From contig CM048560.1 in the NCBI GenBank assembly GCA_026413225.1, positions 10,310,001 to 10,374,000 of the forward strand: 64,000 bases of DNA, written 5' to 3'. This DNA is from Otis tarda. Its lineage: Eukaryota; Chordata; Aves; Otidiformes; Otididae. The number at the start of each line of letters is the position of its first letter. The first letter of the stretch is position 1. The translations under genes were made by a program, and so were the position numbers. The notes beneath the pieces were generated by a model. It did no database searches. It was not told the origin of the DNA and saw only the letters and a program-made list of their open reading frames with translations. Positions 8,123-14,077 of the stretch are shown here, piece by piece.

Positions 8123-11100
8123 CTACAAAAAAAACAGAAATGAGAAGTACTTCAGTGACAACTGGTTTACATCAAATGGATTTTAGCAAAGCGATTGCAG
8201 TGGTTTTCATGCTGCTTTTTGAGACACAACTTACCTGGAAGGAGTAAATGTCCCTGCTGCAAGAACAACAAGAAAAAGTATTAGCATTTCAAGACAAAAG
8301 ACCCCCTCATGCAAACTTTCTTCTACTAAAAAGCCTCTGATTTCAGAATAGCTGATAAAAAGCCATTATTTAGCAACAAGGCAGTTTATTACTGTGTTGT
8401 CATTAGCATAATCTCAAATTCCCATTCACTTTCCCTCACAGTAATTACTGATGTTACTGAATGTTGCTTTTTTTCTTCTAATTCTTATTTTCTAAACATT
8501 TGGCTTTTACTATTTTTGATTTTTAAATGTTGACCCAAAAGCCAAACATGGCATGCATGCAGGCTTCTTGAAAATAATTTTGGAATTTCCTTAAGTATGG
8601 GAATCTTCACTTTTTCAAAAAGCAAGGTATTAGGGTTTGGAGGTGTTTTTCTTCACTGAATTTTTCAGTAAGATAAAACCAGTGGACCCAGTCCAATTGC
8701 TCACCTTTTCTTTGGAAACGTCTTACAAGCCAGAGAAGGAAGAATGCCGTGGACAACAGAGAGGCACTTGTGGCTGCTATGCCCACAGTGACATAGCTCA
8801 CTTGTTCAGAAGCTGAAAGGATGGAAAAGTTTCAGTGAGATCAAGAGGCATGCGAGGTCTTTGAAGCCCTCTCTACTTCTTCCTCTTCTTGTGCTCTTCA
8901 AGAGGAACCAGAATTGCAGCTTGTAACCCTTTAATTTTCTCTTGCTGAGAGAGGACACATCCTATACACAAGGTAAAAAGCTGTATACTAAAGAATTCTC
9001 CCATCCATTGCCAAAGCAATGGCAAGGCAACAAGCTATCTATACCAGGGACTAACCTCCAGCCTCACCTGAGAATTCATGCTCTTTTATTTTTCATGTTT
9101 CAGTTCATGTTTTAATTCCCACTGTGCTGTCTTCCCCTTTGAGCAATCCCATTGAGATCAATTAAATTATTTAAGGATCTAAATTCTCCTCAAGCAAATA
9201 AAGTGGAGTTGAGCTTTTAGGATCTCAAGCAAAAGCTGATTTCAGGCAGGCCAAGTATGTTCCCACTGAGGACAGGGATAGAGCTCTTACTGCCTTGAAT
9301 GGGAAGGGAAAGGCTGAGACTTCTGTCCTGTAAAGTTACAGCTTTGACAGAAAAGCTCTGTGAAATCTTTTGGCTGAGGAGTTCACCCAATAAACTATCA
9401 CACCAAATTAACAAATCTATAAGCTTTTCCACTGAGAAACAGATTTATGAATGCAGATTTCCCCATGAGGTTCTGTTTCTCTAGAAAAGCTTTTTTTCTT
9501 AATTCATAGGGAGAAAGCTCAACATAAGAAATATTTTAATTAAAAATGAAACAAACCAACCTGAAATCAGGCTGCAGCTTTTTGTTTTGGATAAGAAAAC
9601 AATATTTTTTACTAAGACCTTTCAGTAATTTTTTCCTCCTTCTTTTTTCAAAAAAACATACAGAGAGATTTGTTTGGGCTTCTTAATTCATGGACTTCAC
9701 TAGAAGTTCTAGCTCACTGGTTGGTGTTACTTCCTCCACCCTTCCATACCTCATTTGACTAGAAACCCAGTGCCACCTTTCTGTGGCTGGTCACAGGTCA
9801 AATACCTTCACATGTGGGCAGAGTAGCACTCCAGTTTCCCAGATAACTGCACTCAAGAACACGAGAACCATTGAGCCTCCATCCTTCTAGACAGCTGAAG
9901 CGGCAGGCTGTGTTGTAGGTGAAGTTCTCAGCACCATGTGAGCAATCCATAGAGCCTCTCTCAGGAGAGCTCAGTGGTTCACACCGTACAACTGAAATAC
10001 AGAAAGAAATGGTTAAGAATCATTAAGGGCTTTCCTGTCTTTGGCCCTATTTTTTTTGCACTAGTAGATGTACACTGTATTTTCAAATTCATTTGACTTT
10101 GGGATGGGAGAAGCTCAGAGCCATGAGCAGGCATTTCTAAGGCATGGCAAACAGCTGAAAACATGAGAGGCAGCGCAGAGTTTGGTGCCAGGACCCTACA
10201 GGAATAGGTATTTCGGTGTGCTGTCCAGTGACAAGAAAACTGTCTTTTCCAACCAGTAAGTCTTACCTTTGCATTTTGGCACTGGTTCTGACCACTGTCC
10301 CTGCGCTGTGCACTCAATGCTGGATGGGCCATCCAGAACATAGCCTTCGCTGCAGTGGAAATCACAACGCGAGCGATAGGTGAGATCTGCAGGAGCACGG
10401 TCACAAGTCACAAAGCCTTCTTCTGGTGGGGCTACAGCCTCACATCTCACAGCTGCAACACACAGATCACAACAGCAGTCAGTACAGATGTCTCAGGACC
10501 TCAACATTCCAACACTGACAGTCCCAAGTGCTCAGTTGAGCTGGGATAAGGAAGGGTACCTGCACAGGATGGCTGCTGCCTGTCCCAAGCCCCAGAAGAC
10601 CCACACTGCAGTGTGGCTGGTCCTGTCAGGACAAATCCTTCCTCACAGGTGAACTCACAAGTAGTACCCCAGGTGAGCTCCACAGAGGGATAGGAGCAGT
10701 TCCCAGCACCATGGGCAGGCATTTTTAAGGCAGGACATGTCACAGCTGAAAAGCATAAGAAACAGTAAAGAGTTTAGCTTGGAGTGGGTCAAGATAAACA
10801 CTCCTCTTTGAACTGACAAGAGGACATTCCCCATTTCCTGAGACACTATTAGGTCTGAAAGGAAGTACTACAGCTCTGTCGGGGACAGCTTCAGGCAGGG
10901 TCTTCAGCGTGTTGCACAGTGCAGCCAGAACCCTTAAACATGCAAGCTATCCCAAGACTGGCTCCAGATTATACTCCAGAAGTGGCTTGAATAAACAGAC
11001 ACTGGCTCCCATTTGGAGTATATAGAATAAAGAGTTCCTGTCAGAACACTCCATTTCAAAAGCCTGTTATCATATGTACTGGGGACACATTTCCTGAGTG

Positions 11101-14077
11101 TTGCTTGTCACCCTTCACTGCTGCTTCCTCTTTAATACAACAGGCTAAATGATCTCCATCCTGAGATCCGCTTATGAAAAGTGCTATAAACATGCTAGTG
11201 ATGACTGTTACTCCGTGACAACACTTAAATGAGGAAGTATCTTCAGCTTATTTGAGCTACTCTAAGCTTTGATTGATTATTACCAACCAGTAAGTCTTAC
11301 CTTTGCATTTTGGCACTGGTTCTGACCACTGTCCCTGCGCTGTGCACTCAATGCTGGATGGGCCATCCAGAACATAGCCTTCGCTGCAGTGGAAATCACA
11401 ACGCGAGCGATAGGTGAGATCTGCAGGAGCACGGTCACAAGTCACAAAGCCTTCTTCTGGTGGGGCTACAGCCTCACATCTCACAGCTGCAACACACAGA
11501 TTACAACAGCAGTCAGTACAGATGTCTCAGGACCTCAACATTCCAACACTGACAGTCCCAAGTGCTCGGTTGAGCAGGAATAAGGAAAGGTACCTGCACA
11601 GGATGGCTGCTGCCTGTCCCAAGCCCCAGAAGACCCACACTGCAGTGTGGCTGGTCCTGTCAGGGCAAATCCTTCCTCACAGGTGAACTCACAGGTGGTA
11701 CCCCAGGTGAGCTCCACAGAAGGATGGGAGCAGTTCCCAGCACCATGGGCAGGCATTTTTAAGGCAGGACATGTCACAGCTGAAAAGCATAAGAAACAGC
11801 ACAGAGCTTAGCTTAGAACAAACCATGAAAAGTTGCTTTTCTTTCCTGAAATTTAGCAACATATCCACTATATGGAAGCAGCTTTAGAAAGGAGATCTAC
11901 TATGCTGCCATTTCAGAAAGCAGATAGGAGTGAAAAGATCTCAAAGGAATGGGCCAGAACTTCAATTTCTACCTACCAATAGAGCAACACTGACATTTAC
12001 AGATCTATGTACAGTGTAGAAAGCTCATTTATCAGTGCTTGAGAAGTTCACCTTTGCATGCTGCAAGGGGGGCAGACCAGACCCCAGAAGAGGTACAGTA
12101 TACAGATTCCAGTGCAGTCAGTTCATAGCCTTCCTCACACTGAACTGTGCAGGATGAGTTGTAGCTGAAGTTCCCCAACAGATGGTTGCACTCAAGGCTT
12201 CCATGATCAGGTTTCTCTAGTGGATCACAACTCTCAACTTCAAAGAAACACAAGAAGGTACACAGTCAGTCTCATCGCTTGAGCAAGTAAATCAACAAGC
12301 CAAACTGAACACTAGCTAGCGTGAACATCACCCGCGTTGAAAAGCAGGATGGAGTAATCTTACCAAACTCGCATTCAGGCCCATAGAACCCAGGGTTACA
12401 GCGGCAGGTGTGATTGTTAATAGTCTCTATGCATTCTCCATGGCCACTGCAGAGAGATGGGTTGCAAGAAGCTGGGGAAAAAAAAGAAAAAATACAGCAA
12501 ATTATAAAAGAATCAGGAATGGCCACTAATGAAACCTGGCTAGTGCTTTATCTTTCTGGCACTAAACAAGCGCTTTGTACAGCAAAAGAAAAAACAGGGT
12601 GTTTGGTACATAAGATTACCCTGTCATTTCACAGAAGCATTTCAGAAATCAATGCCTTTCACAGACTAGCCAGCTCACAGTGAAAGGATTCTACTGGTAA
12701 GACCACTTATTCTCAGGTAGATATTAGCAATACTTAAAACACAAAAGGAAGAGTACACTATGGGATAGGCAGAAATCCTCAACAGGTACGTTCTTCATTA
12801 ACTCACCACAGCTCTTATTTGGCTGATACCTGACTTGGAAGGTTTGGGTTTTTTTTTACCTAGCCTTAGCCAGCTCTACACAAATCTAATCCAGTGGTCT
12901 ATAGTCAGACAGATGCCTCCAAAAGGGCCATTCTTATCTAGCTGAGACATCCACTTGAGAGACAGATGCAAGTCAACATCTGGAAGAGCCTGTTTCTCTC
13001 CACTGATTATAGAAAAGGTCTGGTGATTTTCTCATAAGAGATGTATAATATTCTAGGAGCTAAAAGGTAAGTGAAATCAATCCAGCTCATAGAACAAGAA
13101 TAGCCTCAGCCCTGTAATGATAAGTGTACAGGTGCTTACAAGGTCAGGTACTGAATATGTAAGACTCACCCCACCCACCACCTCATCTCCACAGGGGCAC
13201 ACTAGAAGGGTCTTTATCATACTATACCTGTGTAGCACAAGGCGACCTTCTTTTTCTCACACTGCTCATCATTCCATTTGCCATCATCCTTCCCTCTTTT
13301 GATGTAAATTTCAACGCAGTCCTCATTGTTCCCTTTGCCATTTGGCTCACCTGAAGCCCAGTTTTTTGCCTCTTCTGTCAGTTCTTTGTTAGTTCCAATC
13401 CAGGTCCATACCTCATTAATTTTTCTGATTCCAATCCAGTAGTAACCCGGATTGTAGGGTAAAAAGTTATTGAGATACTTGATTTCCTCCTTATTCTGGA
13501 TGGCAGCCATGTTAGTATACCTCGCTTTGCACCACTGCTCTGCTTCTCTGTAGGTCATGTTTGTGTCTGAATAATGGTATGTCCAACTATTCACTCCCTG
13601 CAGTACTGTAAATCCTAGAATGAAAAGATGACAAAAAGTTGGTGTCTGACTTTTCCCTCCTATCTCTCTAGAAAAGGATCTATAAAGCTCTATAAATCTT
13701 GCAAACTTATCAATATCTGAAACTGCGTAAAAAGTAGTGGCAGTTATTTTATAGACAATTAACTGGCAAGCTTCAAAACAGGCATGTCAGCCTCAAATAC
13801 AGGGACTTCAGTCTGTGAAATTATGTCCTATCACATAAAACTTTGCCAATATAGAAGCCAATTATGTATTTGACAGCCAAGCAGGGAAACATGCTGTTGC
13901 AGCTAGAGGTTTTCCTGTATAAACCCAACCTCAAGCTAATTAGGTTAGATTCAAAAATTCTATTTAATTCTGAGCTCAAACAGAAGAGGTACACTAATAT
14001 TACCATCCAACTAGTCTTCTACACAGACTTACACACTTACCATAAGCAAGAACAGACAGGAACCACAAGCAAATCAT
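8065..14077 (-). CDS. SELE: E-selectin (CD62E), complete gene
   Basis: Endothelial C-type lectin receptor that binds sialyl-Lewis-x-type glycans on leukocytes and mediates rolling at inflamed vessels; type I membrane protein. Coding exons on the minus strand: 14041-14077, 13228-13614, 12364-12471, 12052-12237, 11594-11779, 11301-11486, 10560-10745, 10267-10452, 9806-9991, 8705-8812, 8235-8256 and 8065-8122. All joins keep frame and give 611 residues, against 610 in human SELE. Order: signal peptide, C-type lectin, EGF, six CCP/sushi modules, transmembrane segment, short tail. Six CCPs and the tail motif SSCQSL identify SELE rather than SELP or SELL. The neighbours METTL18 and FIRRM agree with mammalian synteny. 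The promoter has a TATA-like box and an NF-kappaB site. Oddity: CCP4 and CCP5 are near-identical copies of CCP2 and CCP3, and a decayed extra CCP exon follows CCP5. Confidence 0.95.
8235..8256 (-). CDS. SELE: SELE exon 12: 22-bp cytoplasmic microexon
   Basis: The acceptor TTCTTGCAG and donor CCAG/gtaagt bound only 22 bases, encoding AGTFTPS in the frame set by the TM exon. Human SELE has a similar small exon (AKKFVPAS). Splice phase 1 in and 2 out fits both neighbours. Confidence 0.85.
8705..8812 (-). CDS. SELE: SELE exon 11: transmembrane segment
   Basis: Encodes [17 protein letters not shown] and a following leucine- and phenylalanine-rich stretch ending [11 protein letters not shown], a single membrane-spanning helix with a basic stop-transfer. 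Position and length match the TM exon of mammalian SELE. Confidence 0.9.
9806..9991 (-). CDS. SELE: SELE exon 10: CCP6 (sushi) domain
   Basis: A 186-bp exon encoding [16 protein letters not shown] through SATLPTC, with the CCP cysteines and an NFTYNTAC glycosylation-type motif. It is the membrane-proximal module and is not part of the recent duplication. Confidence 0.92.
10075..10154 (-). pseudogene. Decayed CCP2-type exon in SELE intron 9
   Basis: Minus-strand sequence starting at an intact-looking acceptor (TTTTCAG above 10154) reads [20 protein letters not shown], clearly related to the opening of CCP2/CCP4 ([18 protein letters not shown]). The upstream intron flank to about 10195 also matches. 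After about 25 codons the homology fades and a stop follows; the second half of the module and its cysteines are gone. It is a partial third copy of the duplicated unit and presumably skipped by splicing. Confidence 0.8.
10267..10452 (-). CDS. SELE: SELE exon 9: CCP5 (sushi) domain
   Basis: A copy of the CCP3 exon with no base differences seen over 186 bp. The intron between it and CCP4 is also nearly unchanged from the intron between CCP3 and CCP2. Confidence 0.92.
10560..10745 (-). CDS. SELE: SELE exon 8: CCP4 (sushi) domain
   Basis: A near copy of the CCP2 exon with the same splice sites and phase. Four cysteines and the tryptophan are intact, so the module should fold. Confidence 0.92.
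11301..11486 (-). CDS. SELE: SELE exon 7: CCP3 (sushi) domain
   Basis: A 186-bp exon encoding [16 protein letters not shown] through SEPVPKC. By eye it is identical, base for base, to the CCP5 exon. Confidence 0.92.
11594..11779 (-). CDS. SELE: SELE exon 6: CCP2 (sushi) domain
   Basis: A 186-bp exon encoding [16 protein letters not shown] through DRQQPSC. By eye it differs from the CCP4 exon at only about five bases and two amino acids (H/Y and A/V), marking it as one half of a recent duplication. Confidence 0.92.
12052..12237 (-). CDS. SELE: SELE exon 5: CCP1 (sushi) domain
   Basis: A 186-bp exon encoding [15 protein letters not shown] through SAPLAAC, with the four cysteines and late tryptophan of a CCP module. 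It includes an NFSYNSSC glycosylation-type motif. It is clearly distinct from the other five CCP exons. Confidence 0.92.
12364..12471 (-). CDS. SELE: SELE exon 4: EGF-like domain
   Basis: A 108-bp exon encoding six cysteines in EGF spacing ([12 protein letters not shown] ... [12 protein letters not shown]). In selectins this module packs against the lectin domain and supports shear-dependent binding. Acceptor and donor are consensus. Confidence 0.93.
13228..13614 (-). CDS. SELE: SELE exon 3: C-type lectin domain
   Basis: A 387-bp exon that codes for the ligand-binding lectin fold. Visible hallmarks are [12 protein letters not shown], the calcium and sugar-binding GEPN motif, [11 protein letters not shown] and KWNDEQC, all in the order found in human E-selectin. 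The Ca-coordinating glutamate and asparagine of EPN and the asparagine-aspartate pair of WND are intact, so sugar binding should be preserved. Confidence 0.95.

Follow-up and report, generated by a model that had tools for sequence, protein, structure and literature searches.

The selectin gene on the minus strand of a 64,000-nucleotide stretch of Otis tarda DNA (hereafter the window, C9:10310001-10374000, in a genome of 1.198 Gb and 116 contigs) carries two pairs of CCP modules that are almost the same in sequence, the intron within each pair included. This arrangement raises the question of how one gene came to hold two such similar pairs: by a recent copying event, or by the repeated overwriting of one old copy with the other.

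The gene is identified as the E-selectin gene (SELE). Its domain order is a C-type lectin domain, an EGF-like domain and a CCP array, followed by a probable transmembrane segment (chosen by eye), and its best selectin match is human E-selectin, with 395 bits in one stretch covering the lectin, EGF and CCP1-2 regions. Both observations bear out the assignment to SELE made in an earlier note on this DNA. Complement receptor 1 outranks human E-selectin solely by adding up ten CCP stretches. On sequence similarity, the window selectin is nearer to E- than to P- or L-selectin, by a margin that is narrow for the lectin-EGF part alone (249 and 246 bits for E-selectin, 247 and 243 for L-selectin and 225 for P-selectin). 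All six CCP exons start and stop in one phase (1-1), so that gain, loss or conversion of a whole exon preserves the reading frame. Given the position of the transmembrane segment, the gene probably continues beyond CCP6. In an HMM scan of the window together with 180 kb to its left and 100 kb to its right, only weak CCP matches (E = 0.17-0.34) were found beyond the six SELE exons and a relic described below. A cluster of CCP matches is also present at C40:62050442-62111417, several of them in open frames of approximately 950-1040 amino acids that cover more than one CCP; we guess that this cluster is complement-receptor-like. The features of the SELE locus are listed in Table 1.

Table 1. Features of the SELE locus. 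Positions are counted from the first nucleotide of the window.
Feature	Position	Strand	Basis
C-type lectin domain, most of the exon	13229..13588	-	human E-selectin matches
EGF-like exon (ends are the extent of the match, possibly a few bases off)	12362..12475	-	translation and genome match
CCP1 exon, phase 1-1	12052..12237	-	HMM match, splice sites; grouping with human CCP1 (99/97)
Tract copy 1: CCP2 exon, intron and CCP3 exon, with 18 bp past the donor and 37 bp ahead of the acceptor	11283..11816	-	offset-1034 comparison
CCP2 exon (named B)	11594..11779	-	HMM match, splice sites
CCP3 exon (named A), same sequence as CCP5	11301..11486	-	HMM match, splice sites
Spacer of 500 bp, most of the CCP3-CCP4 intron	10783..11282		genome search, flank alignment
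Tract copy 2: CCP4 exon, intron and CCP5 exon, with equal short flanks	10249..10782	-	offset-1034 comparison
CCP4 exon (B), 5/186 differences from CCP2	10560..10745	-	HMM match, splice sites
CCP5 exon (A), same sequence as CCP3	10267..10452	-	HMM match, splice sites
Relic: degraded 5' portion of a third exon B and its acceptor region, in the CCP5-CCP6 intron	10101..10184	-	self-comparison, weak HMM match, three-way alignment
CCP6 exon	9806..9991	-	HMM match, splice sites; grouping with human CCP6 (83/84)
Probable transmembrane segment, 38 residues	8697..8810	-	by eye from translation

Compared at a fixed offset of 1034 bp, the two copies of the tract align without indels and show 14 differences over 534 positions, 12 of the 14 being transitions. 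The CCP3 and CCP5 exons (0/186 differences) are the same throughout; the CCP2 and CCP4 exons differ at five of 186 positions (three synonymous changes, one H/Y and one A/V replacement) and the intron within the pair at five of 107, counts that the earlier note had reached correctly by eye. When the parts are divided at codons, the donor-side flank has no differences in 19 bp and the acceptor-side flank has four in 36 bp, all of them in the outermost 17 bp. Measured from the splice sites instead, the tract extends 18 bp past the donor of A and 37 bp ahead of the acceptor of B; both of its limits lie close to the exon ends. The copies match at 903 bits in a self-comparison of the window, as against 47-52% DNA identity for the remaining pairs of SELE CCP exons, which rules out chance similarity. 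A genome search found the tract at these two places only (2/2 candidates scored), and the window is without any N.

The differences are unevenly distributed along the tract, with weak P values. None falls in the first 219 bp from position 10249 (longest empty stretch, P = 0.043, uncorrected), and exon A has 0/186 differences versus 10/331 in the rest of the core (P = 0.016, uncorrected); for exon A against exon B alone, P is 0.061. The outer 17 bp at one end of the tract contain 4/17 differences versus 10/517 elsewhere (P = 0.0006, for a boundary that was set after the data had been seen).

Outside the tract, this similarity disappears. Although the copies are spaced 1034 bp apart, they are alike over 534 bp only, and the 500-bp spacer between them returned itself alone in a genome search that skips very common words. 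Alignment of the spacer with the two outer flanks was no better than that of shuffled sequences: the fractions of 300 shuffles reaching the score were 0.25 and 0.29 for one flank and 0.67 and 0.96 for the other. When the outer flanks were aligned with each other, the fraction of 300 shuffles was 0.023 under loose and 0.24 under strict alignment, and no inference is drawn from these values. A tandem duplication should repeat the full 1034-bp period; as only 534 bp are alike, either a copy was pasted at a distance from its source or the exons of older duplicates have been homogenised. A recent tandem unit of the whole 1034 bp is rejected on these grounds, the similarity extending over 534 of 1034 bp without the spacer and the spacer being alignable to neither flank. 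An origin of the spacer from a transposon was likewise rejected, as the same search, with very common words skipped, gave no further copy.

The intron between CCP5 and CCP6 contains the relic of a further B exon. This relic is 77% identical to the CCP2 region (E = 5e-11) and 75% identical to the CCP4 region (E = 7e-9), and a translated piece of 12 residues gives a weak HMM match. Within the shared core, 12 of 67 positions of the relic are unlike CCP2 and 12 of 67 unlike CCP4, while those two agree with one another (0/73), which places the further B exon well earlier than the last homogenisation. At assumed bird rates, on which both dates rest, the difference between the tract copies would correspond to 5-9 million years and that of the relic to 31-54 million years. 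For the outer 17 bp, the relic can be aligned over 15 positions, of which 6 differ from CCP2 and 7 from CCP4; with so short an alignment, homology of this edge is uncertain, and the excess of differences between the tract copies there is at most suggestive of a conversion boundary inside the homology.

The bird modules were compared with human ones in a tree of 18 rows, which included three of the eight array units of a second selectin (described below), the human SELE modules and no mammalian P- or L-selectin CCPs. Bird CCP1 groups with human SELE CCP1 (99/97), bird CCP3 and CCP5 group with human CCP3 and CCP5 (95/98) and bird CCP6 groups with human CCP6 (83/84, below the level starred by the programme). 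This tree gives bird CCP2 and CCP4 no resolved placement. They are 47-48% identical to human CCP3, 47% to human CCP2 and 44-45% to human CCP4, and human CCP2 and CCP4 are themselves 47% identical. Human CCP3 is thus as near to bird CCP2 and CCP4 as their human namesakes are, and the argument for a shared doubled B-A layout is weaker for it; the sequences are compatible with such a layout in the common ancestor of birds and mammals. The total of six modules, which human SELE shares, may equally have arisen independently, as the earlier note suggested.

The same genome provides a control in the form of a second selectin-type lectin domain (C9:12035440-12035808), which scores about equally against L-selectin (183 bits) and P-selectin (181 bits). 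No third selectin lectin domain was found in two genome searches (103/156 and 22/22 candidates scored); a weak lectin match on C7 (31% identity, E = 4e-4) in the first search was absent from the second. SELE (C9:10323588) and the second selectin (C9:12035808) are 1.7 Mb apart. SELE, SELL and SELP are described as being in tandem in fugu, human and mouse (PMC514892). In the bird lineage, SELL may have been lost, or may have been missed here, and the selectin cluster may have been broken.

Eleven CCP exons were found in the second selectin (C9:12029801-12036000), eight of them arrayed in tandem at intervals of 314-323 bp. The exons of these eight units differ by only 1.6-17.2%, and the earlier note's expectation that selectin CCP repeats usually diverge strongly therefore fails in this genome. 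Units 1-2 and 7-8 are 93.8% alike over 536 bp and constitute whole-unit tandem duplicates. Silent and intronic differences were compared for 21 pairs of units, unit 8 being omitted as its downstream intron is of a different length (185 bp). Among the 10 pairs formed by units 1, 2, 5, 6 and 7, silent differences are 0.02-0.09. The introns of eight of these pairs are 21-29% apart; those of the other two (1-7 and 5-6) are alike too, and from their sequences these two pairs look as they would after recent duplication. In the 11 pairs that include unit 3 or 4, silent sites differ by 0.20-0.33 and introns by 0.23-0.39, indicating that silent sites are not specially constrained. Fisher tests gave P < 0.05 in six of the eight pairs with low silent difference and diverged introns (five of eight after correction for 21 pairs, which are not independent) and in no pair out of the 11 that include unit 3 or 4.

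In a Sawyer-type permutation (28 pairs, the 16 lowest listed), pairs 1-3, 1-7 and 2-8 reached P = 0.0002; two of them are consistent with a recent two-unit duplication, and each of the three runs includes sequence outside the exon. Runs within the exon were obtained for pairs 1-5, 1-6, 1-2 and 1-8 (P = 0.005-0.021) and are not significant once corrected, so it is the silent-site comparison that carries the exon-centred claim. By that comparison, the second selectin shows exon-centred gene conversion: in eight of 21 pairs, silent sites are alike while the adjoining introns have diverged. By analogy, we propose that the modules of SELE may be homogenised in the same exon-centred manner.

For SELE, our preferred explanation, with a probability of roughly 0.55, is recurrent, exon-centred gene conversion acting on older duplicates, ahead of a recent spaced duplication; conversion in this gene, its age, its recurrence and its effect on the stalk are inferred. 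What SELE itself displays is the tract with its limits, a spacer and flanks that are unrelated, the relic and the exon phases. The competing possibility is that a 534-bp B-A copy was inserted 500 bp away in the neighbouring intron, for example by template switching, in one event approximately 5-9 million years ago that took the gene from four CCPs to six. This course of events deserves serious attention, although we put it below even odds. Sharp ends of homology and a spacer that matches only itself are in its favour, as are the low difference (8 in approximately 233 silent or intronic core sites) and the phase 1-1 exons, which would tolerate an inserted block. However, it requires both breakpoints to sit no more than 37 bp from exon ends, the uneven distribution of the differences speaks weakly against it and the sister selectin gene displays conversion. 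The relic, moreover, means an older array with another B exon, yet a single old B-A pair plus the relic would also fit.

Whole-unit tandem duplicates such as units 1-2 and 7-8 of the second selectin offer a precedent for a different history, in which a 1034-bp tandem duplication was followed by replacement or enlargement of the spacer by unrelated sequence. We consider this improbable: the spacer and flanks are without recognisable common sequence, the spacer is unmatched elsewhere in the genome (very common words again being skipped) and an extra, unseen replacement is demanded within a few million years. Still less probable is a false duplication introduced by the assembly, as both copies are bordered by different sequence on both sides and differ at 14 positions with frames and splice sites intact, in a window free of N. 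The earlier note had posed the choice as one between recent duplication and conversion; that alternative was rightly framed, with conversion the better fit, but a plain recent tandem duplication does not survive the finding that 534 of 1034 bp are alike.

Under the favoured reading of recurrent conversion, the six-CCP stalk of SELE would contain two old copies of a unit made up of module B followed by module A, one copy being repeatedly overwritten with the other by non-allelic gene conversion. Each conversion tract would span the two exons, B and A, with the short intron between them, and would end where homology stops, just outside the exons. The introns around the B-A pairs would escape conversion and drift beyond recognition. 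As conversion requires well-matched partners, it must recur often enough to halt exon drift. The last exchange would have left the present silent and intronic difference of approximately 3%, equivalent to about 5-9 million years at assumed bird rates, and a third unit, truncated earlier, would persist as the relic. The outcome would be a set of uniform, interchangeable spacer modules that may keep the lectin head off the membrane.

Several known systems resemble this proposal in part. In concerted evolution of the alpha-globin type, homology blocks are split by unrelated spacers; the non-homologous sequence between similar blocks is like that of SELE, but whole genes are involved there rather than exon pairs. 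CCP exons have been duplicated and exchanged within the long homologous repeats of CR1. Exchanges between CFH and CFHR are also reported to involve duplicated and exchanged CCP exons (PMC1626556), as proposed for SELE; CR1 and CFH/CFHR differ from it in that larger blocks or separate genes take part and in that they are complement regulators, not selectins. In TLR1/6, avian TLR1A/B and TLR2A/B and the avian Trojan family, homogenisation of a coding part while the rest diverges has been described, in birds too (PMC3125219, PMC4372362). Conversion in the TLR and Trojan cases occurs between genes, whereas in SELE it would occur between modules of one gene.

The number of SCRs in E-selectin is given as 10 in zebrafish, six in human, mouse and horse and five in rat and rabbit (PMC6331844). 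The lectin-EGF-CCP stalk whose module number varies among species in that report is like the one described here; bird SELE differs from it in having two near-identical module pairs, inner intron included. That selectin CCP number changes between species is already known, and so is the kind of event. Literature titles and abstract openings gave nothing on the CCP number of bird E- or P-selectin among the matches listed; among those matches, the new details are the near-identity of the SELE module pair and its parallel in the second selectin.

The number of CCPs affects how selectins capture cells: when monomeric mouse E-selectin carried six SCRs, two or none, its reported KD for CD44 was 2.0, 5.7 or 17 micromolar, respectively, an effect exerted via the on-rate (PMC7076219). 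A gene that keeps its modules interchangeable could alter the length of its stalk in one step with the frame intact. A bird with two selectins whose modules are homogenised would lend itself well to asking whether selection tunes the length of the stalk or whether that length merely drifts. We suggest, as a tentative generalisation that we regard as somewhat unlikely, that in this bird lineage neither of the two selectins detected has stayed in the ancestral cluster arrangement and that both keep their modules uniform by exon-sized conversion as their introns drift. If this is true, module number would be free to grow and shrink as a spacer that can be adjusted, and it might be polymorphic in the species.
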